NCBI GenBank assembly: GCA_937927975.1
Contig: CALEZT010000088.1
Span: 62,001 to 126,000, forward strand
DNA from: an uncultured Phycisphaerales bacterium
GTDB lineage: Bacteria > Planctomycetota > Phycisphaerae > Sedimentisphaerales > Anaerobacaceae
Reading direction: 5' to 3'
DNA length: 64,000 nt
How positions within the stretch are numbered: the first letter of the stretch is position 1; every line of letters begins with the position of its first letter. Below the pieces are notes generated by a model that saw only the letters and a list, made by a program, of their open reading frames with translations, made no database searches and had not been told where the DNA came from. The position numbers were made by a program, and so were the translations under genes. Shown in pieces: positions 1-61,023 of this stretch.

Positions 1-3000
1 GTCCTGGCCGACTGGTCCCGGTAGTAGAGCCGATTCTCCCTGCGGGCCATCACGTCGATCATCTCCTGGAACAGTTCGGGACGGTCAACCGTCTCGGCAG
101 CGACCGCGGTCCGCTCCGCGGGACGCGACCGATGGACCCTGGCCGGCGCGACGCGCCGCTTGGCAGCGACGCTCCGCACCGCGCGAAGACTCGACGGTTC
201 CAGGATTTCGCGGTAGATCTTCAAGACCTTCTCGCTGCCTTTGTCGATGCTGAAGCGATTTCGGAACTCCACGACGTTCTGCTTCAGCGACGCGAGGTCC
301 GCAGCGTTCAAGATGCGAGGCAAATCCTCCAGGTCGCGGTCCTGCAGGACGATTCCGAGCTTGTATCGCTCGACCAGTCCCGCCATGTAGTGATTGTCGC
401 TGTCGATCACGACAGGCAGGCCCGCCCGCAGGTAGCTCAGAAACTTGTAGGCCATGAAGTAGTTGTAGTCCGCGCCGTCCATGTCCTTGGGACGCAGCAG
501 AGTCGTTCCGTAGTCGTACTCGGAGATCTTCCTGACGAACACCTCCAAGGGCAGCGGCGCGCAGGAATGGATGTTCACGAGGCCGTGCCTGCGAATCACT
601 TCCTTGAGCGAGTCGTTCTCGCCGGCGGCGCCGGCGTACGGATTGTTGTAGATGTACAGGTGCAGATTCTCCCGCGCGAAGTGCGGCGCCACGGTCATGA
701 ACGCGCGGTAGTACAGATCGTCGGGATTCGTCGAGGCCAGCATGCAGCCGCCGTACACCAGGCGGATCAAGCCGTCGCTCGACGAGGGCCCGCTGTAGAC
801 CGGCTCCTGAAGATACTCGGTCACCGATACGATGGAAGCCTGGCTGTCGTACTTTTCCGCCAGCCTTGTCGAGATTTCCTCGGAACACAGATGAATGGCG
901 TGATCGTAGCTCCTGACGAAATGCTCCTCGGCGCCGCGGACTTGCGAGGCGGTGCTGTGCGTCTTGGAGAAATAGGCGTCGGACAGGAAGCCGAGGACCT
1001 CATAGAAGTCAATGACCGTCCGCCTGCGGTCGGGAATGTAGGGCGACAGGGGCAACGCCTGAATCCCCCACCCCACGTTCAGGTGCACGAGCGAGGGCTC
1101 CACGATCTGGAAGATCAGAGGCCACAGGTAGAAACACGGCTCGACGATCGTTTCGTCGAATCCTCTGTCGATCAAAGGCCTGGGCGAAAGGCCGATGCTC
1201 CGCAGCCGCTCGTCCCGTCGACGAACCGCCGCGGCCATGATGCCGACCGTATGAATCTCGCGGTACAGGGGATACAGAACAACATCGTGGCCGTCCAGAC
1301 GCCTGCGAGTCTCCCGAACCGGATCGAACCGCCCCAGATCGATGAACTTCTCACGATAGTCGTTCGTCAGACAGCCCCGCGCTGCCTGGGCCGGCGTTCG
1401 GCCGGAGACGCTGAAAATCGGAACTCCGACCTCCCCAGCCCGCCCGGCGGAATAAACCGGGTACTGGCCGAAGATTCGAGAGTCCAGTTTCGCCAGCAGA
1501 TCGTCCTCGACGACGAATCCCCTGAGATCCCGCGGCCCGGATTGCTTGAGCATCTGTGCCGTTGCATGCAGGCTCAGCACATCGTCGAGGTACAGCACGC
1601 ATGGCTGACCTCCCATTTCGGCCAGCATCTCGCCGGCCCGCTGCGCCATGCGATCGACATGATACAGACAAGACCAGTCGGCCTGCTTCCGCCGCACATA
1701 TTCTCTGTCCAGCGACGGTCCGGCCCGTTCGATCCGGGCCTCCAGATAGCGCGTGTACTCCTGCTCGGAGAGGTACTGCCGGCCCTCCAAAGACAGCGTC
1801 GCCTCATCGGAGGAGATGGATACAGAAGCCGGCACGCGACGGACAGCCTGCGGCTTGTTCGGAACGCTCACTGTGAGACGACGCCTGGCCGCCTTTTCTC
1901 CAAGTATTCGATCGTACAGGGCCGACACCTTCGCGCCCCCCCGATTGACCGCCCAGGAAGAGCGGAATCGCACCACGTTCTTCTTGAGTTGGCCGATATC
2001 CTGACGATTCAGAAGGTCAGGCATCCGATCGCAGTCGTCGTATCCATAGACCACGCCGAGACCATGATCGCGAACCAGATCGGCGATGAACGTCTGGTCC
2101 TCCGGGACCACGATGGGCAGACCGGCGCGAAGATAGGTGATGAACTTCGAGGGAAGGACATAGCCGTAGCTCGTGGGTCGGACCCCCTCGGGAGTGGGCA
2201 TGCACATGCCGAAATCATACCGCGTGATCTCCCGAACAAAATCGTTCTCAGCCAGAGGCATGCAGGCGTGAATGTTGTTGCGTCCCGTCTGTCGAATCAG
2301 TTCCTCGACCCCCTTGGGCGCGCCGAACCCATAGAGATAAGGAGACGGATAGAGGTACAGATGGAGGTTCCCGCCGCAGTAGTACTTCACCATCTGGAAG
2401 AAGTTCCTGTAATGCGGGTCCTCGGGCCCCGCTCCCTCCTGCACCAGCAGACCGCCATAGACGAGTCGGACGATTCCATCCCCCCTGGCGGGCTGGGACT
2501 CGTAGAGCGGCTCCCGCAGGTACTCGGTCACCGAGACAATCTCTTTTCCCGGATAAACCGCGGCGAGCGAATCGGAGACCGTTTCGCTGCAGCGGTGGAC
2601 GAATCCATGAAACCGCTCGAAGAGCGTCTTCTCCGAAGATCGCGTCAGAGCCAGAGGTTCCGAATGATGGCCATCCAGCGCATCGTCTCGAACGAAGGTC
2701 AACAGATCGTAGAAATCGATGATCGCATCTTCCGGGACAAAAGGAGCGAACGGAAGTCCCTGCGTCCCCCATCCGACGTTCACGTGAAACACATCCGGCG
2801 CCAGCGATCGGAACACCAGCGGCCACAGATAGAAGAAGGGCTGCTCGATCACCGCGTCAAACTCTTTCGAGTCTGAACCTTGCGCCGAATTCACCAGCAG
2901 CACGGTGGCGAAATCCGCGTTCTTGCGGATCTCTTCCGAGAGAGCCGCCAGAGTCTGGACTTTTCGATAGTCCACGTACAAGACCGTCCGACGACCCTCC

Positions 3001-3494
3001 ACTTTGCGGCGGGTCTCCTGCGGAATCGAGAGTCGGGATTCATCGATGAAACGAGTCAGGAAGTCGTTGCCCAGGTCCCGTCCGTTGTCCCGGAACGGCC
3101 GATCGTCTGAGAGAGTGACCACGACCGCGCCCTCGGGGTCGCGCCAGTCGCTTGCTCGGCAAACCGAAAACGGCGAGAACCACTCGGGCTTGAGATCGCC
3201 CCAAAGCGAGTCCGCCGCCAGGAAGCCTCGAAACAGGCGGGCATCGAATCGATGGCGTTGCGCGAGGGTTCGAAGACACTCGAGATCCGACGGCCCTTGA
3301 AGGTACAGCCAAGTCGGGCGGTCCCGCTCGGAAGTCAGCAGTTCTGCCGCCCGCTCGACCAGCCGGTGGCTGCCGTATTGCTGACGCCACGCTTCGAACC
3401 TCTTGACGACATGTTCCCGGGCCAAAGCATCGGGAAGTGCACCGATGTGCTCCTCCAGGAAGGCTCTGTAACTGGCATCCGACAAGAAACTCAT
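1..3494 (-). CDS. Tandem-duplicated glycosyltransferase-like protein (3' end outside window)
   Basis: One reading frame stays open from the ATG at 3494 to the window edge, at least 1164 codons. An AAAGGTG ribosome site precedes the start. The protein is an internal duplication of about 570 residues: N-terminal FLSDASYRAFLEEH resembles YLSEQEYTRYLEAR near residue 575. FFYLWPLVF with HVNVGWGTQGLP is matched by CFYLWPLIF with HLNVGWGIQALP. VSVTEYLREP with RLVYGG near residue 318 recurs as VSVTEYLQEP with RLVYGG near 890. In each unit the second half (LHLYLYP, then YLRAGLPIVV) reads like the C-terminal donor-binding half of a GT-B glycosyltransferase. The gene is last in the visible glycan run, 20 nt after the HemN-like gene. 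Family membership is inferred from fold-like motifs. The tandem duplication is directly visible. Confidence 0.8.
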   Translation of the reverse strand, partial: MSFLSDASYRAFLEEHIGALPDALAREHVVKRFEAWRQQYGSHRLVERAAELLTSERDRPTWLYLQGPSDLECLRTLAQRHRFDARLFRGFLAADSLWGDLKPEWFSPFSVCRASDWRDPEGAVVVTLSDDRPFRDNGRDLGNDFLTRFIDESRLSIPQETRRKVEGRRTVLYVDYRKVQTLAALSEEIRKNADFATVLLVNSAQGSDSKEFDAVIEQPFFYLWPLVFRSLAPDVFHVNVGWGTQGLPFAPFVPEDAIIDFYDLLTFVRDDALDGHHSEPLALTRSSEKTLFERFHGFVHRCSETVSDSLAAVYPGKEIVSVTEYLREPLYESQPARGDGIVRLVYGGLLVQEGAGPEDPHYRNFFQMVKYYCGGNLHLYLYPSPYLYGFGAPKGVEELIRQTGRNNIHACMPLAENDFVREITRYDFGMCMPTPEGVRPTSYGYVLPSKFITYLRAGLPIVVPEDQTFIADLVRDHGLGVVYGYDDCDRMPDLLNRQDIGQLKKNVVRFRSSWAVNRGGAKVSALYDRILGEKAARRRLTVSVPNKPQAVRRVPASVSISSDEATLSLEGRQYLSEQEYTRYLEARIERAGPSLDREYVRRKQADWSCLYHVDRMAQRAGEMLAEMGGQPCVLYLDDVLSLHATAQMLKQSGPRDLRGFVVEDDLLAKLDSRIFGQYPVYSAGRAGEVGVPIFSVSGRTPAQAARGCLTNDYREKFIDLGRFDPVRETRRRLDGHDVVLYPLYREIHTVGIMAAAVRRRDERLRSIGLSPRPLIDRGFDETIVEPCFYLWPLIFQIVEPSLVHLNVGWGIQALPLSPYIPDRRRTVIDFYEVLGFLSDAYFSKTHSTASQVRGAEEHFVRSYDHAIHLCSEEISTRLAEKYDSQASIVSVTEYLQEPVYSGPSSSDGLIRLVYGGCMLASTNPDDLYYRAFMTVAPHFARENLHLYIYNNPYAGAAGENDSLKEVIRRHGLVNIHSCAPLPLEVFVRKISEYDYGTTLLRPKDMDGADYNYFMAYKFLSYLRAGLPVVIDSDNHYMAGLVERYKLGIVLQDRDLEDLPRILNAADLASLKQNVVEFRNRFSIDKGSEKVLKIYREILEPSSLRAVRSVAAKRRVAPARVHRSRPAERTAVAAETVDRPELFQEMIDVMARRENRLYYRDQSAR

Positions 3495-3514
3495 GCGTTT
3501 CACCTTTCAGCCCG

Positions 3515-4930
3515 TCACGGGCCAGAGATCCGGTACACCTTGTTGCCCGAGAGGAACAGGTCGAACACCTTGGCCAGATTCCGCACGAATCCCTTGCCAA
3601 GATCCGTCACGAACAGGCCGTCGTCGCGCATCTGGACAAGTCCGCGATCTGCGAAGGGTTCCATGGCATCCAATTCCCTGCGAAAATGCGTCCTGAAATC
3701 GACGCCGTGGGCTGCTCTGACGTCCTCGTAGGAGACCGAGGCCGAGCACAGAATCGATCCGATCACATCTCTGCGAAGGCGGTCCTCGCTCGTGAGACGG
3801 TATCCCCTGTGCGCAGGGAACTGCCCCCGTTCGATCTGGTGCGTGTACTCGTCCAGAGAATACACGTTCTGGAAGTAGTGGCCCTCCAGTTGAAACGTGC
3901 ACGTCGGGCCGGCGCCCAGGATGTTATTCTTGCGATCGGGGGCAAAGCCGTTGAACGTCCGTCCGAGCGTCCCTCTTCGCTTGGCTTTGGCCAGCTCGTC
4001 GCAGGGCTTGGCGAAGTTGTCGATCCCGACGTGCTCCCACCCCGCCTCCGTCATGGCGTCCACGGTCTCGAAGAACAGCCACGCCAGGTCGGCGCCCTGA
4101 GGACGGGAGTATTTCTCCAGGAGCCTTTGATGTTTCCGTTGCTCCGGCACGTGCGCGTACTTGAGCAACGCCACGCGGTCCGGGGAAAGCTCGATCACCT
4201 GCTCGATGGTTCTGTGGAACGAGTCTCTCGTCTGCAATGGCAATCCGTAGAGAATGTCGAAATTGATGCTCTTGAAGCGACGACGCAACTCCGGCGTGAG
4301 CATCGCCTGGATTTCGTCGAGAGAATGCACCCGGTTGATGGCCTGTTGGACCGCTGGGTTGAGATCCTGGATTCCGAACGACAGCCGGTTCACGCCGGCG
4401 CGGTGGAAGGCGTCGAACTTCTCGCGGCTTGCGGTGCGGGGGTCCACTTCCACCGTGAACTCCTCGATCCGGTCTGTCCCCACGTGCGACTGGATCCTCT
4501 CCGCGAGGGCAAGGAACTCCTGTGGCTCCATGAAAGAAGGCGACCCGCCGCCGATGTGGACCGACTTGATCGTCTCGATCAGAAGGGTCCTGTCCAGACG
4601 AGCGAACAGAAGATCGAGATTCCTGTGCAGGGATTGGAGATAGCTGCGAATCCCTTCCCGGTCCGAGCTGATCGTCGCGTTGCAGATGCAGTAGTGACAG
4701 AGCCTCGGACAGAAAGGGAAGTGGACGTACAGAATCGTCGGCCAGGACGGGCCCTCCGACTGGGAAATGGCCCGGTCGAACTCCTCCCGTCCGCAGGTCT
4801 GCGTCCACTCCGACAGGGTCGGATAGCTCGTGTAGTAAGGTCCCGGCTCATGGAACAGACGGATGAGGCCTTCATCGAGAGCCTGCGTGAATCGAAACGC
4901 GGTCCTTGTTGGCGAAATCGTCATGGTCAT
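3515..4930 (-). CDS. HemN-like radical SAM protein
   Basis: 471 aa. Resembles oxygen-independent coproporphyrinogen III oxidase (HemN): FPFCPRLCHYCICN gives the CX3CX2CXC cluster motif (C74, C78, C81, C83), followed by GGGSPSF where HemN has GGGTPT, and by GIDNFAKPCDELAKA, the HemN-type GMDHFA region. The start at 4930 was chosen because it forms an ATGA overlap with the upstream radical-SAM gene. A longer frame to 4996 exists but would overlap that gene by 70 nt. HemN removes two propionate carboxyls from coproporphyrinogen using SAM. No other heme gene lies nearby and every neighbour is a glycan gene. It may be a relocated heme enzyme or a HemN paralogue with another substrate. The radical-SAM call is secure; the substrate is not. 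Confidence 0.85.
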   Translation of the reverse strand: MTMTISPTRTAFRFTQALDEGLIRLFHEPGPYYTSYPTLSEWTQTCGREEFDRAISQSEGPSWPTILYVHFPFCPRLCHYCICNATISSDREGIRSYLQSLHRNLDLLFARLDRTLLIETIKSVHIGGGSPSFMEPQEFLALAERIQSHVGTDRIEEFTVEVDPRTASREKFDAFHRAGVNRLSFGIQDLNPAVQQAINRVHSLDEIQAMLTPELRRRFKSINFDILYGLPLQTRDSFHRTIEQVIELSPDRVALLKYAHVPEQRKHQRLLEKYSRPQGADLAWLFFETVDAMTEAGWEHVGIDNFAKPCDELAKAKRRGTLGRTFNGFAPDRKNNILGAGPTCTFQLEGHYFQNVYSLDEYTHQIERGQFPAHRGYRLTSEDRLRRDVIGSILCSASVSYEDVRAAHGVDFRTHFRRELDAMEPFADRGLVQMRDDGLFVTDLGKGFVRNLAKVFDLFLSGNKVYRISGP

Positions 4931-6792
4931 CGTGGAAACCGTCCCGTCCGAAGATGGTCCGGAGACAATCCGAACCGGGTGAATAGATCGTTCCAATATG
5001 GCGAGGAGGCCAGACGCCCTTCGAGCCGTTCCACCAGTTTCGCATCCGTCCGGCCGTGGAGTCTGTGTCGCAGATATCCGTAGAAGTACATGGGAAACGG
5101 ATCGTCCGGGGCAATCGCTTCGGTGATATAGCGAAGGTACATCGACAATTGCCCGAGCTTCTCCCGGCTGTCCAGGGAGAAGAGCCTCTGAAAATTCAGA
5201 TGGAAGTTCATGTACAGCCAGATGGATTCGTGCAACGCTTTAGGCGGCACCGCGTCCAGATTCGCCCCTGCGAAAGGATCGATGCAAGGGGAGGCAAACG
5301 CCTTTTTCATGACGTGCTCCCGCCGCTTTCCAAAAGGCCCGCTGTTGAATCGAATCTCCTTTGTGTCGGTCGTTTCGGCCAATCCCTGTTTGACCATCAG
5401 ATCGAAGATGGGCGTATTGGGCAGCGGCTGCAAGATGGTGATGTTGTACCAGTCCAGGCCCATCTGCACCGCCAGATTGAAGGTGTCCAGAATCATTCGA
5501 TAGGTTTCCTCGGGAAAACCGACCATGAGAAAACCGCGAGTGTTGATCTGCTCGAACTTCTTGAACACCGCTGCGGCCCGGAGATAGTTCTCTATGCTGC
5601 TGGGCTTGCGGACACTCTTGAGGATCTCCGGATTGCCCGACTCGATGCCGACGTTGAGCCCGATGCAACCGCTCTCAGCCGCGGCTGCGATCAGGTCCTC
5701 CGTGCAGGAGGCGGCCACCACCCCGTTGGTGCAGTCCCAGGTCAGCCCCACGTTCCTGCGGACCATTTCGTTGAACAGACGGATGGCCCGCGTCGAATCG
5801 AAGAACAGATCGTCGTCGAGCCACATGAAATGCTCCACACCCCGCTCCCGCAGCGAGAGCATCTCCTCGATGAGAACGTCGATGGATTTGTGACGCACCC
5901 CTTTGCCGTTGAAGTTCCGAACGCTGCAATACGTGCAGTTGCCCCGGCATCCGCGGTTCGAGAGCACGGTGGCCACGCGGACGGATTGCCCTTTGAGACT
6001 GAAAAACGAGCCGATCGCTCCGCATTGCGACAGCTCCTCGATGTTCAGCAGATCGTGGGCCGGAACGATGTTCAAGTCTTCCTCCGACGGCGTGATCTTC
6101 CCGGTGAAATGAATCCGGGAGGAACCGGTATTGCTGTACGCCTGATAGAGAGCGGCGCCTGGGACCTGGCCGTTCACGGCCTGGACGAAACAGCCGAACG
6201 CCCGCTCTGCCTCGTAGAAGAAGAACAGGTCCACCATCGAGTACTCGTCGATGATCGCCTCGAACTCTTCCCGGCTCATGAAGCAGTTCGTGATGTGCAC
6301 GCCGCCGAGGGACAGGGGCACGTCGGGCGCCAGTCGCTCGATCTCCTGTGCAACCTCCACCGTCGAACGATGGGTCTGCGTGAACATGCAGGTCAAGCCG
6401 ACAAGGTCGGGCTCGAATCGTTCGAGCCCTTGGGACAGAGCATTCGTCCAGATTCTCCGGAAGTCGAACTCCTCCTTCGAGTCGTTCCGCCGACAAGCCT
6501 TGAGGACCTCGTGGTGGAGGTTGAGAATCTGCACCTCGATCCCATCCCGACGAAGATGGCTGGCGATCACCCCAACTCCATAGGCGGGATGATTCCAGTA
6601 CCGGCCGCGACGGGCGGTGGCGTAATCGAACATCGTCTCGTCCCCCTCCGGCGGGACCACGAAAAGGACCTTGCGAACGCATCTCGCAGGAAACAGCTCG
6701 GAGAGTCGCTCCTGGATCAACTCCTCGAAGCGGCTGTCGCCCAAAGCCACCGCAACCTCCTGCGTCCCTGGAACACTCTTCTCTTTGAGCAT
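4927..6792 (-). CDS. B12-binding-domain radical SAM protein, paralogue 1
   Basis: 621 aa. Residues 35-200 look like a cobalamin-binding Rossmann domain (KVLFVVPPEG, then DLVGLTCMFTQTHRS and LSLGGVHITN). A radical-SAM domain follows with GCRGNCTYC (C282, C286, C289), then WLDDDLFF and the SAM-contacting GIESGNPEILKSVRKP. Such class B enzymes do methyl transfer or rearrangements at unactivated carbons. Start ATG at 6792 is preceded by AGGAAGGAACC. It lies 2 nt after a paralogue of the same architecture (6795-8690). Substrate unknown; methylation or rearrangement of a sugar is inferred from the cluster. Confidence 0.85.
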   Translation of the reverse strand: MLKEKSVPGTQEVAVALGDSRFEELIQERLSELFPARCVRKVLFVVPPEGDETMFDYATARRGRYWNHPAYGVGVIASHLRRDGIEVQILNLHHEVLKACRRNDSKEEFDFRRIWTNALSQGLERFEPDLVGLTCMFTQTHRSTVEVAQEIERLAPDVPLSLGGVHITNCFMSREEFEAIIDEYSMVDLFFFYEAERAFGCFVQAVNGQVPGAALYQAYSNTGSSRIHFTGKITPSEEDLNIVPAHDLLNIEELSQCGAIGSFFSLKGQSVRVATVLSNRGCRGNCTYCSVRNFNGKGVRHKSIDVLIEEMLSLRERGVEHFMWLDDDLFFDSTRAIRLFNEMVRRNVGLTWDCTNGVVAASCTEDLIAAAAESGCIGLNVGIESGNPEILKSVRKPSSIENYLRAAAVFKKFEQINTRGFLMVGFPEETYRMILDTFNLAVQMGLDWYNITILQPLPNTPIFDLMVKQGLAETTDTKEIRFNSGPFGKRREHVMKKAFASPCIDPFAGANLDAVPPKALHESIWLYMNFHLNFQRLFSLDSREKLGQLSMYLRYITEAIAPDDPFPMYFYGYLRHRLHGRTDAKLVERLEGRLASSPYWNDLFTRFGLSPDHLRTGRFPR

Positions 6793-6794
6793 GA

Positions 6795-8690: not shown

Positions 8691-8696
8691 ATCGAT

Positions 8697-9467
8697 TCAC
8701 GCAACCGCGTAGGTCTTCCCTTCCCCGGCGTCGATGGGCACCAGGCACCCGCCCATCATCCCGGCCGCATCGGAACAGAGAAAAGCGATCAAAGGCACGA
8801 GTTCCTCGGCGTCGGCCAGCCGGCCCCGCGGCAGCCGCTCGGCGATGAACCGCTCGACCACTTCGGGTTTGTCGGCCTTGAGCCTCTGCCACGAATTGCC
8901 GGGAGCATTAAAACCGCCGGGCAGAATCCCGGTGACCACGACGCCGTGGGTGGCCAGGTGATTGCCCAGGCTTCGCACGTAGGCGGCCAGTCCCGCCTTG
9001 GCGGTGTTGTACCCCACGGAGGCCACGGCATCCGTGGAAGCGACCGAGCCCACGTGCACCAGATTGCCCTTGCCCCGCTCCATCATGGCCGGGGCCACGA
9101 GCCGGTTGATTTCGGCCGCCGCCGCCACGTTGAGGGAGAACAGCTTCAGCATATCGCTGGCGGAGATCAGCGGCTCCCGAAGTCCAAGCCCGCCTCCGGC
9201 CACATGAAGCACCGTGTCAATCTGACCCAGGAACGCTGTCGCTTCACGCACCGCTTCTTCCAACGCCGCTCCATCTGTCACGTCAACGGCGACGGCCAGG
9301 TGATCCACCGCATTATCGCAGGAGCCCCGCACCTCCTCCAGCGTCTCTTTCGACCGGGCCATTAGAACCAGCCGGGCTCCTTGCTCCGCGAACGCCCGGG
9401 CGCAGACGGACCCCAGACCTCGGGAAGCCCCGGTGATCAGAATCCTCTTGCCCTGCAGCGAGAACAT
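8697..9467 (-). CDS. Short-chain dehydrogenase/reductase (SDR)
   Basis: 256 aa classical SDR. TGASRGLG is the NAD(P)-binding glycine motif near residue 12, HVAGGG stands where NNAG is usual, and YNTAKAG carries the catalytic Tyr-x-x-x-Lys. ATG at 9467 was chosen because GAGGTGA lies 8 nt upstream; a GTG three codons earlier has no ribosome site. It follows the SPASM-type radical-SAM gene with a gap of about 10 nt. It probably oxidises or reduces a sugar hydroxyl/keto group in this cluster, possibly a keto product of the thiamine-diphosphate enzyme encoded upstream. That link is inference. Confidence 0.85.
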   Translation of the reverse strand: MFSLQGKRILITGASRGLGSVCARAFAEQGARLVLMARSKETLEEVRGSCDNAVDHLAVAVDVTDGAALEEAVREATAFLGQIDTVLHVAGGGLGLREPLISASDMLKLFSLNVAAAAEINRLVAPAMMERGKGNLVHVGSVASTDAVASVGYNTAKAGLAAYVRSLGNHLATHGVVVTGILPGGFNAPGNSWQRLKADKPEVVERFIAERLPRGRLADAEELVPLIAFLCSDAAGMMGGCLVPIDAGEGKTYAVA

Positions 9468-9477
9468 CGACTTCACC

Positions 9478-10548: not shown

Positions 10549-10564
10549 ACGCGTCGATCCTTCT

Positions 10565-13917: not shown

Positions 13918-13919
13918 GG

Positions 13920-17800: not shown

Positions 17801-17806
17801 GTCGTC

Positions 17807-19333: not shown

Positions 19334-21212
19334 ATCGGTTTGGTTCTCGCGGTCGATCGCCCCACGTCAGCGTCGAGGGGGCAAGAAAGTAGATCGGTTT
19401 CGACTGGGCCGCCGTGCTCGTCGACAGAAGCAGGTTGGCCATCTCGTGGCTCAAATCGGCGACAAGAATGGCGTCATAATCCACGCTCTCCAGATCCGCC
19501 AGGCGGTAACAGGGGAGATGGTAGAACTTCCTCGCGGTCGCCGCCCCACGGACTTCGACAAAGCCGGCGATCCGGTCCAGCTCCAGTCCGAACACGTCGA
19601 AGAAGAAGAAATCCATCGCGTTCTTGCCGGTCCCGAGAATGATGATCTTTCGAGCCCGTCGAAGATCCGTTCCGAGCTGCTGGTAGTATTCCCGAGTCTG
19701 AGGCAAGTCCATGAAATGAAAGAAGTTCTTCTGATGACAGGCGGAACAACGGAAGGAGTACTCCACGACGCCCACGACGTCCTGCGTGCGGACAAGCTGC
19801 GTGTGCTGGATTCCGCATCGATGGCAACGTCCGACGAGATGGATCTCGCGGCTGCCGTTGCCGCCGGGACGGGCCACCAGCGTCATATCCCGCGTGCGGA
19901 ATTCACGGTACTGGAACGAGAGGTATCGCCGGACCTGCTTGTAGACCGACTCCAGGACCGTCCCGGACGGCATGTCGCTGATGTTGAAGTAGGACATCTC
20001 CGAGAGCGAGGGCGACCGCCATGGCCATTCTTTCATCCGATTCGTCATGTAGTCCCACTCGTCGCCGATCAGCCCCTTCTTGAGGGCCCGGACGTAGATC
20101 GGGGTACCGGGGTAGACGCCCACGAGTCCGAAATTGGCGTCCATCTTGTTCTCTATGACGAAATCGAACGTCTTCTTCAGATCCTCCTCCGTCTCGTCCT
20201 CGTTGGTCATCATAAACGGAGAATCCACCATCAGTCCGACCCGCCGGGCGGCGTCGAGCGTCCTCTTGAACTGATCCACGGAACACCCGCGTTTGAGGGT
20301 GGGCAGGATGTTCTCCGACGCGCTCTCCAGACCGGCGCAGATCATGACACAGCCGGCATCCTTCATGATCGGCAGCAACTCGGTCGATTGGTCCATGCGG
20401 AAACAGCAGCTCCACGGTTTCCTCGGCCGGGTCTTCTTGTACTCCCGGCAAAACTCCAGAATGTCCTCGTTGCAGTCAAAGAAGATCTCAGTGGCGAACG
20501 TGATCCACTCGAACTGGTAGCGGCGATTCCATTGCTCGATTTCGCAAAGGATGTTCTCAATCCTGCGCGGCATGAACCGCCCGACGGTGGGCGAGCAGAA
20601 GCTGCATCCCCCCTTGCAGCCTCGCCCCGTCAGAACGGGCATCATCCGACCCAGCCCGGGAATGACGTGGTGACGGTAGGAGTCGATATAGCCTTGAAGG
20701 TCAATTGCCTCGTAGGCAGGCATGAAGTCTTCCTGATCCAGAGCCACGCGGCGGGGAGGATTCCGGACCACGTTCGCATCCGGACCCTTGAAAGCCAGCC
20801 CTGGAATGGACCCGTAGTCGGCGCCCGCGTGCAGCGCATGGAGAAGCTCGGGAAGACAGCGCTCGGCTTCTCCCACCACCGCAAAATCGACCGGCAGCTT
20901 GTCCAGGAGCAGATCCATCCGAGCGTTCTTCGTGATGTTGCCCCCAAGAACGATCGGAGTCCGCAAAGACAGCGACCGAAGACGGGTCAGCATCTCGCGG
21001 AACCAGTTGATGCCATAGACGAAGCCTCCTGTCCCCATGGCCAGGTATTCCCCTGCCGCCAGCTTACGCAGGTAGTGTTCGACGGGCAGGGCCGGCCGGC
21101 TCATGTCGAGAAAATCCGTTTGGATCTCCGCCTGCTTCAGACACGACAAGACATACCCCATGCCGATCGGGATGAACTGGAACGGGGGCTTGATCAGAAG
21201 GACTTTCTTCAT
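19260..21212 (-). CDS. Radical SAM protein with zinc-ribbon and Rossmann-like C-terminal parts
   Basis: 650 aa. Residues 1-150 resemble a B12-binding-like domain (KVLLIKPPFQFIPIGMGYVL, PIVLGGNITKN). The radical-SAM motif is GCKGGCSFC (C199, C203, C206). Around residues 462-492 CHRCG and CSAC form a four-cysteine zinc-ribbon-like site. From about residue 515 a Rossmann-like part begins, KIIILGTGKNAMDFFFFDVFG, resembling N-terminal domains of PglD-type sugar acyltransferases. The ATG at 21212 has GGAGAACGAAG upstream and an ATGA overlap with the methyltransferase. This three-part architecture is unusual; function unknown. Confidence 0.82.
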   Translation of the reverse strand: MKKVLLIKPPFQFIPIGMGYVLSCLKQAEIQTDFLDMSRPALPVEHYLRKLAAGEYLAMGTGGFVYGINWFREMLTRLRSLSLRTPIVLGGNITKNARMDLLLDKLPVDFAVVGEAERCLPELLHALHAGADYGSIPGLAFKGPDANVVRNPPRRVALDQEDFMPAYEAIDLQGYIDSYRHHVIPGLGRMMPVLTGRGCKGGCSFCSPTVGRFMPRRIENILCEIEQWNRRYQFEWITFATEIFFDCNEDILEFCREYKKTRPRKPWSCCFRMDQSTELLPIMKDAGCVMICAGLESASENILPTLKRGCSVDQFKRTLDAARRVGLMVDSPFMMTNEDETEEDLKKTFDFVIENKMDANFGLVGVYPGTPIYVRALKKGLIGDEWDYMTNRMKEWPWRSPSLSEMSYFNISDMPSGTVLESVYKQVRRYLSFQYREFRTRDMTLVARPGGNGSREIHLVGRCHRCGIQHTQLVRTQDVVGVVEYSFRCSACHQKNFFHFMDLPQTREYYQQLGTDLRRARKIIILGTGKNAMDFFFFDVFGLELDRIAGFVEVRGAATARKFYHLPCYRLADLESVDYDAILVADLSHEMANLLLSTSTAAQSKPIYFLAPSTLTWGDRPREPNRYESESQDIPAERTAGRAPAASGCE

Positions 21213-22072
21213 CTTCGTTCTCCAGAGCCCTCGACTCGGGGCCGAGCGGTCACGCACAGATGCCACCCTCCCCATCGCTCCAGACGATGGAACAAAGCGT
21301 CCGGCATCCACCGGAACGGCCAGGCCTTGCGGTACTCGTACCGCTTGTACTCAGGGATGCTGTATGGGAAGATGTGCTCGACGCTCGCGGTCACCACCGA
21401 GAATCCATCGAGCAGACCCCGCACCGTCCTGCGAGAATAGCTGTATGTCACCGGACAGCCCGTCTGCGCCTCGGAATGGCGTGCGATCAACTCATCGAGC
21501 TTCCAGAAGGCCCCCTTGCCCTGCGTGAGCAATATCCACAGGACCTTGTAGGAGTAGCGATGGTACACCATCATCTTGAACACGCTCGCAGGTCCCGTGT
21601 ATTTTCGAATCTGGGCGATTACGTTCTCGGGACGCGGCGTATGGTGGATCACGCCGAACGAGTAGACCAGATCGTATGTGTCCAGTGGAACGACCTCCGA
21701 CAGCCGCTCGGCGTCGGCCCGGCAGAACGTGATACGGTCCTGCAAATCGAAAACCGCCGCGCGTCTCCTGGCCAAACCGAGGGATTCTTCGGAGAGATCG
21801 ACCGCTGTGACCTGTGCCCCAGCTCGCGCGAAGCGGATCGTGTCGGTCCCGATGCCGCAACCGATCTCCAGGACCTTCTTGCCGTTCCACCGCTCGAACT
21901 CGGCAAAACGAGGGATGTGCGGCTCCACAAAGTACTTGCGGGCCTCGACTTCATCGAAGAACTCCCGGGTCCCGACCGGTCTAGGTGAGTGCCGGATGTT
22001 GCACGGCCGGGCGTCCCAGTACCGGCGTACGTCGTCGACCGTCCGGGTGCGAAATGGCTGCGCCAACGTCAT
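21209..22072 (-). CDS. SAM-dependent class I methyltransferase
   Basis: 287 aa. The N-terminal DDVRRYWDARPCNIRHS is typical of glycan-cluster methyltransferases. VLEIGCGIGTDTIRFA is motif I near residue 70, TAVDLSEESL is the acidic loop, and DLVYSFGVIHHTPRP is the methyltransferase-11 signature. The C-terminal 100 residues (HIFPYSIPEYKRYEYRKAW) extend the fold. ATG 22072 has GGGAG 9 nt upstream. The start overlaps the end of the dehydrogenase gene by 92 nt. Probably methylates a sugar or linked amino acid; acceptor unknown. Confidence 0.83.
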   Translation of the reverse strand: MTLAQPFRTRTVDDVRRYWDARPCNIRHSPRPVGTREFFDEVEARKYFVEPHIPRFAEFERWNGKKVLEIGCGIGTDTIRFARAGAQVTAVDLSEESLGLARRRAAVFDLQDRITFCRADAERLSEVVPLDTYDLVYSFGVIHHTPRPENVIAQIRKYTGPASVFKMMVYHRYSYKVLWILLTQGKGAFWKLDELIARHSEAQTGCPVTYSYSRRTVRGLLDGFSVVTASVEHIFPYSIPEYKRYEYRKAWPFRWMPDALFHRLERWGGWHLCVTARPRVEGSGERR

Positions 22073-23441
22073 ACAAGATTCTCCCAGAAGTCTGCGCCGC
22101 GGTCCCGAACGCGCGATACTCGAATTTCCGGAACGAGGCGTTGCGGTAGATGCGCCAGCAATCGATCAGAAGCGGAAGAGGCCCGACTCGATCCTCCAGT
22201 CGCCCGATGTCCAGTTGGCTGTACTGCGGCCACGGCGTCAGCATGACCACAACCGAGGCGTTCGCGACCGCTTCGTACGGGCACTCGCAGCAGACGCCGC
22301 GTCCCTTGAGGACCTCCGAGGCGTTCGACAGGGCCTTCGGATCGTGCATCCGAACGACATAGCCGGCGTCGAGGAGCTTACGCGCCAGCACGACGGGCTG
22401 CGACTCCTCGACGATGTGGGTTCCCGGCTTGTAGGAAAGGCCCAGCAGCGAGACCGACGACCCGGGCAGCGCGTGCTCGCCGACCATGGCGAGCAGCCGG
22501 TCGACGATTTCCCGATTCACCTCCACCACCCTGGGACTGAGATGCGCCCACGTCCCGGCGTCCTCGGCGCATCGCTGGAACGCCAGGTTGTCCCTCGGAA
22601 AGCAGGGGCCGCCGAAACCGAGGCCCCCTTTGAGATACTTGCGTCCCACCCTTGCGTCGGCTCCGATCGCGGTGGTCACGACGTCCACGTCCGCCCCGGG
22701 AATCCGCTCGCAGATCGCCGCCAGTTCGTTGGCGAAGCTGATCTTCATCGTCACGTAGCAGTTGAGGCTCAGCTTGGTGATCTCGGCGTTGGTCAGATTC
22801 ATCACCGCGTGGTAGGGATCGCTCTCGACGACCGAGGAATACAACGCTCTGGCGGTCTGAGCGGACCGGTCGTCCGAGGCCCCGATCAACAGCAGGTCGG
22901 GATGAAGAAAGTCGTGAATCACCGAACCCAAAGCCACGAATTCGGGGTTGTAGAGCAGCCCGAAATCCCGCCCGCACACCTTGCCCGTCAGCGACTCCAG
23001 CAGAGGCGCAAAGACCCGCTCGCATGTGCCGGGCATGACCGTGGAGACGACCCCGACGACGTGAAACGAGTTCTTGGCACGCAGGGCCGGCGCGATCCGC
23101 GTCAGAACCGCCTCCACCGAAGCGTTGGAGAACCGCCCGTCCGGATTGCTGGGGGTGGGAACCGTAATCATCGTGATGTCGCTGCTGCGGACCGCATGGC
23201 CGTAGTCCGTCGTGAACTCCATGTTGTGCCGACATCGGTCGAGAAGTTCAGCCAGGTGCGGTTCGTCGATCGGACAGAAGCCTGCGTTCAAGGCATCGAC
23301 GTGGGAGTCGCTGGAATCGACGCCGACCACGCGATGCCCTTTTGCCGCGAAGCAGGCCGCCGAGCAGAGTCCAAGCTTACCCAGGCCGACCGAGGAGACC
23401 GTGAGTTGATGATTCGTCGCAGAGGAGCCGGGATTTGCCAT
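21981..23441 (-). CDS. UDP-glucose/GDP-mannose dehydrogenase family protein
   Basis: 486 aa. The NAD-binding motif SVGLGKLGL lies at residues 17-25, TVPTPSNPDGR follows, and GGPCFPRDN near residue 278 carries the catalytic cysteine. The C-terminal UDP-binding domain shows LGLSYKPGTHIVEESQ. The family oxidises the C6 alcohol of NDP-hexoses to a uronic acid in two steps. ATG 23441 lies 17 nt after the previous stop with AGGAT upstream. The last ~35 residues, past the usual end, run over the methyltransferase start and look like tail extension. Confidence 0.9.
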   Translation of the reverse strand: MANPGSSATNHQLTVSSVGLGKLGLCSAACFAAKGHRVVGVDSSDSHVDALNAGFCPIDEPHLAELLDRCRHNMEFTTDYGHAVRSSDITMITVPTPSNPDGRFSNASVEAVLTRIAPALRAKNSFHVVGVVSTVMPGTCERVFAPLLESLTGKVCGRDFGLLYNPEFVALGSVIHDFLHPDLLLIGASDDRSAQTARALYSSVVESDPYHAVMNLTNAEITKLSLNCYVTMKISFANELAAICERIPGADVDVVTTAIGADARVGRKYLKGGLGFGGPCFPRDNLAFQRCAEDAGTWAHLSPRVVEVNREIVDRLLAMVGEHALPGSSVSLLGLSYKPGTHIVEESQPVVLARKLLDAGYVVRMHDPKALSNASEVLKGRGVCCECPYEAVANASVVVMLTPWPQYSQLDIGRLEDRVGPLPLLIDCWRIYRNASFRKFEYRAFGTAAQTSGRILYDVGAAISHPDGRRRTPVLGRPAVQHPALT

Positions 23442-23457
23442 AATCGATATCCTGTGT

Positions 23458-23796
23458 TCAACGATCCATTCCATAGGCGCCGATGGCCCGTTTGACCTGA
23501 CGCAGTTGTTTCAGTTTGCTTTGCACGTCGGCCTGTTCGGCCTGGAGCATCAGCGTCAGTTCATCGTACGACCGCTTCAAATCGCGCCGCCGGGTTTTGG
23601 AGATGGCCGCCGCGCCCGCCTCGTGGCCTGTAATTCCCGCCACGACCGCGTTGGTCTGTTCACCCAACGACTCGACCCGCGAGAAGTCCCCTTTCCGCAC
23701 GGCCTCCAGTTGCTCCTTCAACAAGCAGCACAGACGGATCGCCAGATCCTCGACTTCCCGTCCGACATCCTGTCTGCCCCCGCCATGCGCCGTCAT
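23458..23796 (-). CDS. Small helical protein, FlgN/FliT-like
   Basis: 112 aa, almost entirely helical. LLKEQLEAVRKGDFSRVESL resembles the repeating helix of FlgN/FliT flagellar export chaperones, and the second half (DLKRSYDELTLMLQAEQ, KLKQLRQVKRAI) is a coiled coil. The ATG overlaps the TPR gene stop as ATGA. Its position between flagellar-linked TPR and sugar genes fits a chaperone for a late flagellar substrate. The family call rests on pattern only. Confidence 0.6.
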   Translation of the reverse strand: MTAHGGGRQDVGREVEDLAIRLCCLLKEQLEAVRKGDFSRVESLGEQTNAVVAGITGHEAGAAAISKTRRRDLKRSYDELTLMLQAEQADVQSKLKQLRQVKRAIGAYGMDR

Positions 23797-24416
23797 GTCT
23801 GTCCTGCCCCCGCCAGCGTGTGCTCGACCTCTTCGAGCAGATTCGCGGCGTCCCGATTCGTCGGTTCCAGCACCAGCAAATCCTGAAGCGTGCCCTTGGC
23901 CAGTTCGGTCTGACCATCCTTGAGATACAGGGCCGACAGTGCGAACATCACGGAGGTGTCGCCCGGATGCATCTGGAGATACACCTGGAGATAGTAGATC
24001 ACCTTCGCGAAAGAGCCCATCTCACACGAGACCTGGAACAACCCCAGCAGGGCCGTGATGTTGTTGTTGTCCAGTTCGAGCGACTTCATGTAGAGATCGA
24101 ACGACTGCGGGAAATCGCGGCGCTGCTGGGCCACCATCGCCAGGCCGGTGTAGGCCTTGGCGCACCGCGGATCGAGCCGACAGGCGACCCGGAACGCGAT
24201 CTCCGCGTCCTCCAGCCTGGCCTCCTGGAGGGCGGCGACGCCCAAGCCCACATACGGTCCCGGCTCGTCGGGTCCCAGCGCCGCAGCCTTCTCGTAGCAG
24301 CGGTGGGCCTGGCTGTAGTTGCCGACCGACGTGTAGCAATCCCCCAGCTCCTGCAACACTTCATAGTGCTGCGTCAGTTTGTGCCTTTCGACTTCGTTGG
24401 CGTTCATGCTATCCAT
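23793..24416 (-). CDS. TPR protein
   Basis: 207 aa with about four to five tetratricopeptide repeats from residue 15 on: LGDCYTSVGNYSQAHRCYEK, then YVGLGVAALQEARLEDAEIA, YTGLAMVAQQRRDFPQSFD and FALSALYLKDGQTELAKG. No signal peptide. ATG 24416 lies 13 nt after the stop of the glycosyltransferase gene; ATG 24407 is an alternative. TPRs hold protein partners. With TPR regions also in the next two glycosyltransferases, it may help dock enzymes onto a protein substrate such as flagellin. That is inference. Confidence 0.8.
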   Translation of the reverse strand: MDSMNANEVERHKLTQHYEVLQELGDCYTSVGNYSQAHRCYEKAAALGPDEPGPYVGLGVAALQEARLEDAEIAFRVACRLDPRCAKAYTGLAMVAQQRRDFPQSFDLYMKSLELDNNNITALLGLFQVSCEMGSFAKVIYYLQVYLQMHPGDTSVMFALSALYLKDGQTELAKGTLQDLLVLEPTNRDAANLLEEVEHTLAGAGQT

Positions 24417-24429
24417 ACTGGTTGCAGTC

Positions 24430-26079
24430 CTAAACTCCCCCACGGGTCTGCTCGTATTGCATCCGGGCTTGGGGTTGCGGCGGTCCCGGCTCTTTGGCGT
24501 CCGAAAGCCCTTGCTCGGCCTGCCGGAGAAGCTCGATCGCCCCGGCGAAATCCCGCTGCCGCCGACGCACCTTCGCTTCCAGCAACAGCGTGTCGACCGC
24601 CGGACGCAACCGATTGACCTCGCGGCTCAATCGACCCGCCTGGGCGCGGTCGCCCGCCTCGAAGTACGCACGGGCCGCCATCGTTTTCATCCACAACTCA
24701 TTGCCGTATTGCCTGCCCATCCTCTCGAACAATCGGGCCGCCAGCGTCCAGTCCCCTTCCGCCTCGGCCAGCTTGCCCTGCCGGAGCAGCTCGTCGAACT
24801 GGAAGGGCAGTTCCTCCAGACTGGGACTTCGCAGCCGAACCCCGAAGGCCGCCAGGGAACCCTCGATCGACAGGTGCGGATAAGCCGCTCGAGCCTGCTC
24901 CAGTTCGGACCGCCGCACGACGGCGCCCCACCGGCCCGGTTCGCATCCAGCCAACAGGAAACCCTCACGGTCCTCACGACTCTGCAGGATGGCGTGCACC
25001 GCGTCCTCCACCCACATGTCTTCGACGGGAATCCCCATCGAGACAACCGCCACATGTTGTCCCTGGGCCTTTTGCAGTGCTGCGTCCACGCGTTCATCCA
25101 CCGAACTTCGGGGATCCACGGGAACACACACCACGTTGGGCATCTCGATGTCCAGCCTCGCCAGATCCGCCGGCGGAAGCGGAAGATAGAGCTGATAAGG
25201 GTAGAACGTATGCCGCCATATCCGCATGAGCGTCTGCCCGACTTCATGATTCAGTCGGTCCAAGGCCATGATGATGGCCAGTTCGCCCATCCTGGGCCAG
25301 GGCTTCGGCGGGTTCTTCGTCCGAATCGCCAGTACGTTGCGGAGGTAGTCTTCGGAATCCCTCCGCCGCACGTCCGAGATGCGGTCCGAGTTCTTGAGCG
25401 GACAGTAGAATTCCCCGGTAATCGACAGGACGTGATGAAAGTCCGAGAAGAACGCCGTGCGGCGGTTGATATCCCAATCGATCAGGATGTTGAGGTTCTC
25501 GGAGTACGGACCGGTCTTGTCGAGCAGGTCCCGACGATGCATCAGCGAGACGTGCAGGACGTGATTGAAATACAGCATGAGAAACCGGTCGAAATCCCTG
25601 CTGATCTCCACGTGCTTGCTCAGGACGACCCGCTCGCCGCCAGGCCGGACCTCGCAGTAGACGCGGTACAGATCGCTGTAGGCCGCATGGGAATCGGTCT
25701 GTGTCTCCAGGGCGCGGACCAGCGTTTCGACATGGTGGGGATACCATGCGTCGTCGTCGTCCAGATAGGCGACGTATCGGCCCTGGGCTTTGGACAGCGC
25801 CTCGTTGAGCGAATGAGGCTTGCCTCGGTTCTCCTTCCTGTCGATGAAGACGATCCGAGAATCGCGGAACGAGCGGACCACGTCGGCGACGTCCTCGCCC
25901 CCGTCGCGGATGACGAAGATCTCCAGATCGCGGTAAGTCTGCGACAGGGCGCTGGTCAGAGCGCCGGCCAGATACCGCCGCCGGTTGAACGTCGGCATCA
26001 GCACGGACACCAGCGGACCCCGTGCGTCTCCCCCGTTGGGGCGGAGCCGACCTGTCGTATCTGCGAAAGAGTTCGTCAT
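24430..26079 (-). CDS. Family 2-like glycosyltransferase with C-terminal TPR-like region
   Basis: 549 aa. Residues 22-250 are a GT-A domain: LVSVLMPTFNRRRYLAGAL, then RDGGEDVADVV and the metal-binding YLDDDDAWY (Asp107-110). DWDINRRTAF lies in the acceptor region. Residues 290-420 are of unclear fold. The C-terminus from about 430 has TPR-like helices (LLRQGKLAEAEGDWTLAARL, ELLRQAEQGL). No signal or membrane segment is visible, so it acts in the cytoplasm. Start ATG 26079 is 21 nt after the preceding gene. Transfers a sugar from an NDP donor; substrate unknown. Confidence 0.87.
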   Translation of the reverse strand: MTNSFADTTGRLRPNGGDARGPLVSVLMPTFNRRRYLAGALTSALSQTYRDLEIFVIRDGGEDVADVVRSFRDSRIVFIDRKENRGKPHSLNEALSKAQGRYVAYLDDDDAWYPHHVETLVRALETQTDSHAAYSDLYRVYCEVRPGGERVVLSKHVEISRDFDRFLMLYFNHVLHVSLMHRRDLLDKTGPYSENLNILIDWDINRRTAFFSDFHHVLSITGEFYCPLKNSDRISDVRRRDSEDYLRNVLAIRTKNPPKPWPRMGELAIIMALDRLNHEVGQTLMRIWRHTFYPYQLYLPLPPADLARLDIEMPNVVCVPVDPRSSVDERVDAALQKAQGQHVAVVSMGIPVEDMWVEDAVHAILQSREDREGFLLAGCEPGRWGAVVRRSELEQARAAYPHLSIEGSLAAFGVRLRSPSLEELPFQFDELLRQGKLAEAEGDWTLAARLFERMGRQYGNELWMKTMAARAYFEAGDRAQAGRLSREVNRLRPAVDTLLLEAKVRRRQRDFAGAIELLRQAEQGLSDAKEPGPPQPQARMQYEQTRGGV

Positions 26080-26100
26080 CGCTCGTACAACCGCAACCTG

Positions 26101-27612
26101 TCAGGGCGTCGCCCGTCGCGTCTCGCGAGGCGATCGCCGGGTGGAAACCTCACACGAGACCTCGCCCGCAACGCGTCCGGGCCTGGATTCGATCTCGGTC
26201 TCGATCTGCTGGAGAATGCCGTTGACCCGGTTCAACTGCTGATCGAGCGGATATCGCTGCTCCACGAACCGGCGATACTGCTCCGGCTCATACTCGCGAG
26301 CCAACACGTGTTCGCAGAACTGCTCGGCGATGTTGAACAGGTGCTTGGGAGGGAACAGCTTGTCGGCCCCCGGGAAGTTGTGAACGATGGGCTTCAGGCC
26401 GCAAGCCATGCCCGCCAACAGGGCCTCGATCTGGTCTTCTCCGATGCCGCAGGCGACGATGTAATGCTTGTCGCTGAGCCAGCCGTTCAGTTCGCCGTAC
26501 GAGGGCTCGAACGTGATGACGTCGGTCAAGTCCAACGTGCGGACCATATGACGGACGTACTGCTCCAGGATAGGGCTCTCGAACGAACCCGCGAACGACA
26601 GCCGGTATCCTGGGTCGAGGTAGTGCAGCTTCTGCATGCACTGAACCAGAAACGCGGGATTGGCCTGCATGGTCAGACAGCCGATGCAGGCGAGGTTCTT
26701 GCCCCGCTCCCGCCGGCGAAGCGCATACCGTTCGAGGTTGACGCCGTTGGGCACAACGACCAGTCGAGTTCGATTGTGAATGTCCGGCACCTGCTCGACC
26801 AGAACCTCCTCCACCGCGGAACTGCCGATCTGAACCAGGATGCTGACGTTCTCCCATCGCACGTCCTTGGCCCATCGATCGCACAGGTCCGATCTCCGAA
26901 CGCTGACGACAATCCGGGCATCGCCTCTGAGCCTGGAGGCCTCCACAGCCATCGGTCCGCCCCCGTCGAACCAGGCGATGTCGCTCCATCGCAACAGGCT
27001 GGCCATGGCGTCGTGAGAAGCGTCGGACTCGGACACCAAGCCAAGACCCTGATAGTATTCGGTCTGGAACCGTTCCTGCACGAATTCGCAGATCTCGGCC
27101 AACACCCCGTCCCCCCCGGCGCCGGCGCGGAAGAACGCCACTTTGGGCCGCTTGCTGCGGATCACCTCGAGCATCGGCGTAAGCACTTCCTGCTCGGGCC
27201 ACAGGCGACGAGACCGAAGCAGCACGTCGATGGCCAGACCCGCCCTCCCCTGATCCAGGAGCAACGTGGCGGTTCGGTTCAGCACGTCGATGCTCAGAAT
27301 GCCCAACTGCTCCATGGAGTCGAACAACGCAACGGCCTCCGCGGCTCGCCCGCCGGCCAGATAAGCCTCCACCAGATTCCACACGATCTCCGCGCTGTCG
27401 GCCTTGACGCTTCGCGCCTTGATCAGACAGCCGATCGCGTCCTCAGTCTGCCCCAGGCAATGCAGGATCGCGCCGGCATCGTTGAGGGCCTGAGGATCAT
27501 TCGGCGCCAGGCGCAGGTGCTCGCGGATGCAGTGGAGCCCTTCCTGGTGCCGGCCGGCCGTGGCCAGTTCCAGTCCCCGTTGATAATGGTTCAAACCCGT
27601 CTGAGTCGTCAT
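26101..27612 (-). CDS. TPR / GT-B-type glycosyltransferase, first gene of the glycan run
   Basis: 503 aa. Residues 5-150 are TPR repeats (YQRGLELATAGRHQEGLHCI, ALNDAGAILHCLGQTEDAIG). Residues 165-480 read as a GT-B glycosyltransferase: VVVPNGVNLERYALRRR is the usual acceptor/donor hinge, RLSFAGSFESPILEQYV and ACGIGEDQIEALLAGMACGL are the donor-site helix region. ATG 27612 has GGGAG upstream; a GTG at 27642 is an alternative. A sigma-54-type promoter lies at 27669-27684. TPR-linked GT-B enzymes can act on proteins (OGT-like arrangement), so direct protein glycosylation is possible. Confidence 0.83.
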   Translation of the reverse strand: MTTQTGLNHYQRGLELATAGRHQEGLHCIREHLRLAPNDPQALNDAGAILHCLGQTEDAIGCLIKARSVKADSAEIVWNLVEAYLAGGRAAEAVALFDSMEQLGILSIDVLNRTATLLLDQGRAGLAIDVLLRSRRLWPEQEVLTPMLEVIRSKRPKVAFFRAGAGGDGVLAEICEFVQERFQTEYYQGLGLVSESDASHDAMASLLRWSDIAWFDGGGPMAVEASRLRGDARIVVSVRRSDLCDRWAKDVRWENVSILVQIGSSAVEEVLVEQVPDIHNRTRLVVVPNGVNLERYALRRRERGKNLACIGCLTMQANPAFLVQCMQKLHYLDPGYRLSFAGSFESPILEQYVRHMVRTLDLTDVITFEPSYGELNGWLSDKHYIVACGIGEDQIEALLAGMACGLKPIVHNFPGADKLFPPKHLFNIAEQFCEHVLAREYEPEQYRRFVEQRYPLDQQLNRVNGILQQIETEIESRPGRVAGEVSCEVSTRRSPRETRRATP

Positions 27613-27668
27613 CCCTTGTGCTCCCTTCTTGGCAACTGTCACAGGACGATCAGTATCCGCCCCAGTAC

Positions 27669-27684
27669 TGCAAACCGCATGCCG
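27669..27684 (-). promoter_or_regulatory. Candidate sigma-54 (-24/-12) promoter for the glycan run
   Basis: Read on the minus strand: CGGCAT, five bases, TTGCA. This matches the TGGCAY-N5-TTGCW consensus at all positions but the first, with exact GG-to-GC spacing. It lies about 57 bp upstream of the first glycan gene, in the 185-bp gap after flgL. Confidence 0.6.
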
Positions 27685-27797
27685 ACCCCAGAAAATGCGA
27701 TCATGAATCCTCCCGCGGCGGCCTCCCTCTTCTCCGCTGGATAGAAATCACACGCCCGCGTATGCAAACCAGTCGGCCCTCGAACCAAACCCCGCCG

Positions 27798-61015: not shown

Positions 61016-61023
61016 CCGCCTGC

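Follow-up and report, generated by a model that had tools for sequence, protein, structure and literature searches.

We analysed a window of 64,000 nucleotides (nt) from an uncultured Phycisphaerales bacterium (contig CALEZT010000088.1, positions 62,001 to 126,000 of the forward strand). Twenty-one co-directional genes occupy positions 3–27642 on its minus strand, downstream of the flagellar gene flgL. Open reading frames (ORFs), codon-position GC and domain content all agree with a first-pass annotation on this run of genes. They agree likewise on its six radical S-adenosylmethionine (radical-SAM) proteins and on the families of its sugar enzymes and tetratricopeptide repeat (TPR)-linked glycosyltransferases, which matched Pfam and NCBIfam models. 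By ORF limits and assigned starts, adjacent genes overlap or lie at most 21 nt apart, and the lowest gene is truncated at the window edge. Scans of the window with Rfam (at the gathering threshold) and for tRNAs returned no matches. The cluster and its upstream features are listed in Table 1.

Table 1. The gene cluster and the features upstream of it, in order of transcription (positions within the window). GT, glycosyltransferase; rSAM, radical-SAM protein; MT, methyltransferase; ThDP, thiamine diphosphate; aa, amino acids.
Feature	Position	Strand	Basis
flgL, upstream neighbour of the cluster	27798..28985	-	Pfam Flagellin_N
Conserved block with 5-6-5 dyad, probable activator-binding site	27741..27768	-	Pattern match across spacers
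Sigma-54 type -24/-12 promoter element, CGGCATGCGGTTTGCA	27669..27684	-	Element kept in window and 6/6 relatives; strict pattern three times in 64 kb
TPR-GT1, TPR and GT-B glycosyltransferase, FlmG/OGT-like architecture	26101..27612	-	Pfam TPR; Glyco_trans_1_4 below cut-off; AlphaFold
GT2 glycosyltransferase with TPR-like tail	24430..26079	-	Pfam PF00535; flgK nearby upstream in 27/33 genomes
TPR protein	23793..24443	-	Pfam; after GT2 wherever class loci extend that far
FliT-like small protein, possible flagellar export chaperone	23458..23796	-	PF05400, 23.2 bits (cut-off 29.5)
UDP-glucose/GDP-mannose dehydrogenase family	21981..23474	-	Pfam; best solved match UDP-glucose 6-dehydrogenase 3vtf
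SAM methyltransferase MT2	21209..22072	-	Pfam
B12-binding radical-SAM protein c	19260..21212	-	PF02310 and PF04055; CKGGCSFC; start at MKKVLL
HldE-like, cytidylyltransferase-like domain then PfkB kinase	17807..19333	-	Domain and NCBIfam matches
GSU2086 family protein, weak match to nickel-pincer ornithine cyclodeaminase	16832..17800	-	NF052581, 390.7 bits (cut-off 250)
SIS-domain phosphosugar isomerase, GmhA-like, divergent	16249..16902	-	Pfam and NCBIfam matches
rSAM2, radical-SAM protein with SPASM-like C-terminus	15097..16239	-	PF04055, PF13186
HAD-family phosphatase	14426..15139	-	Pfam
DJ-1/PfpI family protein	13920..14429	-	Pfam
Fused cupin and ThDP enzyme, probably YerE-like	11236..13923	-	Pfam TPP domains; cupin weakly MannoseP_isomer, below cut-off
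SAM methyltransferase MT1	10565..11236	-	Pfam
rSAM1, radical-SAM protein	9478..10548	-	Pfam; 82-94% identity in 5 relatives whose loci extend there
Short-chain dehydrogenase (SDR)	8697..9476	-	Pfam
B12-binding radical-SAM protein b	6795..8690	-	Pfam; CRGNCKFC
B12-binding radical-SAM protein a	4927..6792	-	Pfam
HemN-like radical-SAM protein	3515..4996	-	TIGR00538 above cut-off
Tandem GT-B-like glycosyltransferase	3..3503, cut by window edge	-	AlphaFold; ORF of 1941 aa in G004

The gene next to flgL encodes TPR-GT1, which combines a TPR N-terminus with a GT-B C-terminus in both its Pfam matches and its AlphaFold model (predicted local distance difference test, pLDDT, 86). Ranked by E-value, the best PDB matches of the model were SPINDLY and O-GlcNAc transferases, whose full-chain TMq was 0.34–0.42. 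Better TM-scores came from single GT-B enzymes, BshA among them (TMq up to 0.53). Its ATG at 27612 is conserved in seven genomes and is therefore the most likely start. The truncated gene at the opposite end of the cluster has no Pfam match. The AlphaFold model of its first half (pLDDT 75) has GT-B enzymes as its best PDB matches. In two other loci, single ORFs of 2828 aa (L120, 798–9284) and 2088 aa (L094, 6025–12291) overlap the match to this tandem glycosyltransferase and reach up to fliD.

A genome scan with the cluster's GSU2086-type protein, whose nearest named relatives come from Sedimentisphaerales and Phycisphaerales metagenome-assembled genomes (MAGs), found 324 relatives, and we studied the loci of the best 80 of the 324. 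The first six (G001–G006), all planctomycetes, make up the close clade; the remaining seventy-four are mostly from other phyla. Gene content and order in the close clade are those of the window, mostly at 64–96 per cent identity (47–80 per cent for the FliT-like gene, 80–94 per cent for the cupin–ThDP enzyme). A search of planctomycete genomes for this set beside flgL, suggested by the first-pass annotation, thus found what it had predicted, with flgL immediately upstream of TPR-GT1 in all six. Contig breaks divide the G002 set over two contigs, with an end inside GT2, and stop the G001 contig inside rSAM2. MT2 had no match in G004, and rSAM c had only a fragment match in G005. At the low end of the cluster, high-identity copies of rSAM a and hemN occur in G003 only (88–89 per cent), and the other low ends read differ. 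In G004 and G005, the two of the six whose contigs were read that far, fliD comes after the last glycosyltransferase, as it does in G224, a more distant genome. Past it, on the opposite strand, are FlhB (G004 and G005) and FliR (G005). In all three genomes the flagellin gene is some 17 kb past fliD.

Some features of these loci are worth recording separately. Two G003 contigs may adjoin, as C264 ends within hemN and C78 starts with a 94 per cent match to the remainder of hemN; C78 has a flagellin match at 29 kb. The flgL of G003 is shortened beside a run of N (L089, around 19236) that probably marks masked sequence or a gap in the assembly. In seven loci (L170, L171, L173–L177), the relatives' flagellins are 269 aa long, which leaves little room for outer domains, and the L169 copy is incomplete.

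The flagellar linkage of GT2 extends beyond the close clade. We searched 298 genomes of the class to which G005 belongs, drawn evenly from a larger group, and found FlgK in 221 of them. The TPR-linked GT2 was present at an E-value of 1e-30 in at least thirty-three, a lower bound with four candidates scored per genome. In 27/33 of these genomes, flgK lies less than 10 kb upstream of GT2 on the same strand; in the other six, flgK is on a different contig (five genomes) or 23 kb away (one). The usual order in these loci is flgK, flgL, one or two copies of TPR-GT1, GT2 and the TPR protein, often followed by a FliT-like gene, and then differing sugar genes and fliD. In thirteen loci a single contig carries both flgL and fliD, and the glycosyltransferase block lies between the two. 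Three genomes (G027, G050, G057) have an extra gene before TPR-GT1, and G186 has no TPR-GT1 match. The comparison thus identifies the glycosyltransferase block as the largely constant part of the locus and the sugar cassette as the variable part. The radical-SAM gene rSAM1 is much rarer, found at 58 per cent identity or more in 7/298 genomes (including G004 and G005) and at about 45 per cent in one more; its remaining matches in the class are low-identity radical-SAM proteins.

The element at 27669–27684, which the first-pass annotation had described as an apparent flagellar-type sigma-54 promoter, was recovered at exactly this position on the minus strand. It fits the GG-N10-GC spacing and consensus of sigma-54 sites and is retained in 7/7 genomes (the window and six relatives) despite a diverged spacer. 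The strict pattern GGCAYR-N4-TTGCW occurs three times on both strands of the 64-kb window, compared to a mean of 0.2, and fewer than three in every case, for sixty first-order Markov sequences. All three sites precede flagellar-region operons or the twenty-one-gene cluster. The second (39957–39972, minus strand) lies before flgD, is kept in 3/3 relatives checked, and falls within a doubtful 175-aa ORF (39881–40408). The third (42140–42155, plus strand) lies before the TPR gene at 42231, in a TPR/activator operon, and is kept in 2/2 relatives checked. Another sigma-54-like match, at 17016, is within coding sequence and was put down to chance. Two sigma-54 activators are encoded within the window, and the sigma-54 DNA-binding domain was present in 8/8 relative genomes searched. 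We also scored thirty-one gaps between flgL and the glycosyltransferase block for a sigma-54 site, on a scale of twelve. Twenty-two of these gaps are at least 100 nt long and nine are shorter; a site scoring 10/12 or more was found in nineteen of the twenty-two.

Upstream of the −24 element by 63–65 nt is a conserved block with a dyad, CATAC-N6-GTGTG in the window and CAGAC-N6-GTCTG in G006, G224 and G185. A wide pattern for this block matched eight of twelve spacers tested (the window, G001–G006 and G185), with G224 recognised by eye, and a loose dyad pattern matched 7/9 spacers, the exceptions being G004 and G005. The block is probably an activator-binding site.

Between the glycosyltransferases, the cluster encodes an apparent route to a modified sugar. 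The SIS isomerase and the HldE-like protein, which has its two domains in the opposite order to HldE, have heptose enzymes as their nearest relatives. The fused cupin–ThDP enzyme has 8rph as its best solved match (full-length, 482 bits; 306 bits for the next structure). The sequence of 8rph shows a CDG motif, as described for the YerE-like enzyme JanthE in PMC12247030, which suggests that 8rph is JanthE. The cluster enzyme instead has the canonical GDG and carries the cupin fusion. It is probably YerE-like; YerE is a sugar-branching enzyme. The fusion is a single open frame in the window and in the five relatives that extend to this gene. A palindromic sequence resembling a repetitive extragenic palindrome (13165–13270) lengthens the cupin–ThDP linker in the window by about 93 nt. 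It is missing from the five relatives read, all of which keep the fusion. We ruled out that it splits the gene, as the reading frame is preserved.

Each of the six radical-SAM proteins carries the CX3CX2C motif, and three (a, b and c) also match the B12-binding domain. B12-dependent radical-SAM proteins are commonly methylases. The HemN-like protein scores 399 bits against TIGR00538, above the equivalog cut-off of 325, and so may be an ordinary haem enzyme. HemN-like genes of 37–40 per cent identity occur in the corresponding region of G004 and G006; G005 had none at an E-value of 1e-20.

Outside the close clade, the seventy-four loci carry mainly the core sugar genes, that is GSU2086, often with the HldE-like gene, the SIS isomerase and rSAM2. 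Three of these loci (L019, L042 and L061) are planctomycete. An rSAM2 homologue at 45 per cent identity or more is present in thirty-four of the eighty GSU2086 loci. We checked for flagellin in forty-five GSU2086 genomes, which lie behind 46/74 outside loci and were picked chiefly because their loci were long. In this set L019 and L042 represent other planctomycetes and the rest are from other phyla. Twenty-six of the genomes had a flagellin match. In four of them (G335, G329, G321 and G342), GSU2086 and a flagellin-type gene share a contig and are no more than 20 kb apart; in G318 the distance is 68 kb, and in the remaining twenty-one the two are on separate contigs. One of the four, a deltaproteobacterial MAG (G335, L051), has an HldE–GSU2086–SIS–rSAM2 core on a contig where an FlgL-like match lies to one side of it and two flagellin matches to the other. 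The first-pass annotation had allowed that the gene set might be found mainly away from flagellar genes. We reject this for the full set but retain it for the core sugar genes, as 19/45 genomes lack a flagellin match. GSU2086 and its partners are therefore a general surface-sugar module, and the tie to the flagellum belongs to the glycosyltransferase block and to the gene set as a whole.

Related loci have been described elsewhere. Pseudomonas aeruginosa has a glycosylation island of variable size between flgL and fliC, likewise directly downstream of flgL (PMC4020848). The planctomycete island differs in closing at fliD in relatives and in holding radical-SAM/B12, ThDP and heptose-like genes. 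To our knowledge, the P. aeruginosa island has none of these. Flagellin glycosylation islands in Enterobacteriaceae and Geobacillus are also variable and lie within flagellar loci, and methyltransferases and GT41 enzymes are reported for the Enterobacteriaceae; the main texts do not mention radical SAM, in contrast to the six proteins here (PMC4875605, PMC5109656). Caulobacter FlmG modifies flagellin with an N-terminal TPR and a C-terminal GT-B domain in one protein, as presented in PMC7591256, an arrangement that TPR-GT1 would share according to its model. FlmG attaches pseudaminic acid, whereas none of the twenty-one was recognised as a pseudaminic acid gene. In Geobacter, HldE, GSU2086 and GmhA/phosphoheptose isomerase are adjacent loci (GSU2085–2087) resembling the HldE-like, GSU2086 and SIS genes of the cluster; this comparison concerns three genes, and the available text of PMC5585712 does not present them as flagellar.

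Taken together, the twenty-one genes very probably form an island for the cytosolic O-glycosylation of flagellar proteins in a Phycisphaerae planctomycete. It lies inside conserved flagellar gene order and carries glycosyltransferases and sugar genes that vary between genomes. The flagellar case is well supported by the glycosyltransferase block, the promoter element and the bracketing by flgL and fliD. The FliT-like gene within the set and the absence of convincing membrane spans from its proteins add to this support. A flagellin- or surface-glycan pathway had been proposed in the first-pass annotation. Its flagellar side stands on the flgL/fliD synteny, the promoter and the linkage of GT2 to flgK, while flagellin is the presumed acceptor. 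The reactions and their order, the sugar and the activity of the promoter are likewise predictions from sequence. In outline, a flagellar-type activator acting at the sigma-54 promoter would switch the cluster on together with hook and filament genes. The SIS isomerase, PfkB kinase, HAD phosphatase and nucleotidyltransferase, all soluble, would convert a sugar 7-phosphate to an activated sugar much as in the heptose pathway. This sugar could then be oxidised, O-methylated and carbon-branched by the YerE-like enzyme. The B12/radical-SAM proteins may also act on it, probably in C-methylations or other C–H chemistry. Still in the cytosol, flagellin or a different filament protein would be recognised by the TPR parts of the glycosyltransferases and receive the sugar before export, in the manner of FlmG.

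Several results weigh against this reading. None of the nine flgL–glycosyltransferase gaps shorter than 100 nt has a sigma-54 site; the block there may thus be transcribed through from flgL. Three longer gaps (G297, G228 and G140) also have none, and 3/19 gaps with a site (G027, G050 and G057) contain another gene. The activator-like block was not found in the more distant spacers of G204, G256 and G276. The PF05400 match of the FliT-like protein, at 23.2 bits, is under the cut-off of 29.5; FliT was also the top match of the three relatives' proteins scanned, again below cut-off. The SIS and HldE-like proteins fall far short of the NCBIfam heptose equivalog cut-offs (72.6 against 276 bits and 153 against 521 bits), which leaves room for a sugar other than a heptose. 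We accordingly dropped an ADP-heptose pathway identity (GmhA, HldE) and call the enzymes heptose-like. Finally, there are the nineteen of forty-five outside GSU2086 genomes in which flagellin had no match.

This last point also bears on whether the cluster makes a general cell-surface glycan, such as lipopolysaccharide or exopolysaccharide, and is found among flagellar genes either by chance or because motility and attachment are regulated together. Those genomes without a flagellin match do have GSU2086 and its usual partners, and in Geobacter PMC5585712 places GSU2085–2087 in the category of extracellular structures in its list of genes that affect growth on electrodes. We nevertheless think this quite unlikely. 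Domain scans and hydropathy of the twenty-one genes revealed neither a flippase or polymerase nor an ABC exporter or lipid-priming transferase, and none of the proteins has a convincing membrane span at a hydropathy cut-off of 1.6, which only the SDR exceeds (1.62; PfpI reaches 1.60). GT2 is moreover tied to flgK in 27/33 genomes, and fliD stands at the far end in relatives.

The island could instead be flagellar with some or all of its radical-SAM, ThDP and HemN-like genes as passengers or parts of other metabolism. Gene content does vary in this way. In place of rSAM a and hemN, G004, G005 and G006 have 20–40 per cent matches to related proteins; G224 has no match for rSAM c, PfpI, the ThDP enzyme, SDR or rSAM b; and to these can be added the rSAM c fragment of G005, the unmatched MT2 of G004 and the HemN-like protein that scores as HemN. 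Against this, rSAM1 and rSAM2 accompany the cassette in the relatives whose contigs extend there and in G224 and G116. Near GSU2086, rSAM2 (at least 45 per cent identity) occurs in 28/74 and rSAM1 in 7/74 outside loci, and the whole cluster is tightly packed in a single direction. We consider the passenger explanation unlikely. It is also conceivable that the sugar goes to a flagellar protein other than flagellin (hook, FlgL, FliD or sheath), as the set sits between flgL and fliD with flagellin genes some distance past fliD in G004, G005 and G224. The comparable islands described in PMC4020848 and PMC4875605 act on flagellin, and such an acceptor seems to us unlikely.

A flagellar glycosylation island is a known kind of locus; what is new is the radical-rich cassette and the planctomycete setting. 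We found no paper in the open PubMed Central (PMC) literature combining flagellin glycosylation, radical SAM and heptose, or combining flagellin, glycosylation, planctomycetes and radical SAM. A more specific proposal, which we put forward tentatively, is that the flagellar sugar is of a kind not yet described, derived from a heptose, carbon-branched by the ThDP enzyme and subject to C-methylation or rearrangement by as many as three B12-radical enzymes and two other radical-SAM enzymes. Its acceptor in the cytosol would be a short flagellin lacking outer domains. GSU2086 and its radical-SAM partner would then be a new, widely shared surface-sugar step, recruited to flagella more than once. 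Most flagellin sugars described to date derive from nonulosonic acid or amino-sugar pathways. If our interpretation is correct, radical/B12 chemistry on a flagellar sugar broadens this range, functions can be assigned to GSU2086 and its partner radical-SAM families in many phyla, and glycosylation in these planctomycetes may be controlled alongside hook genes through sigma-54. The flgL–fliD interval is in addition a ready site for mining sugar cassettes in this class. Elsewhere in the window, genes for an OEP protein, a MacB-like permease, an ABC ATPase and an HlyD-like protein (57893–63160, minus strand) adjoin the flagellar region.

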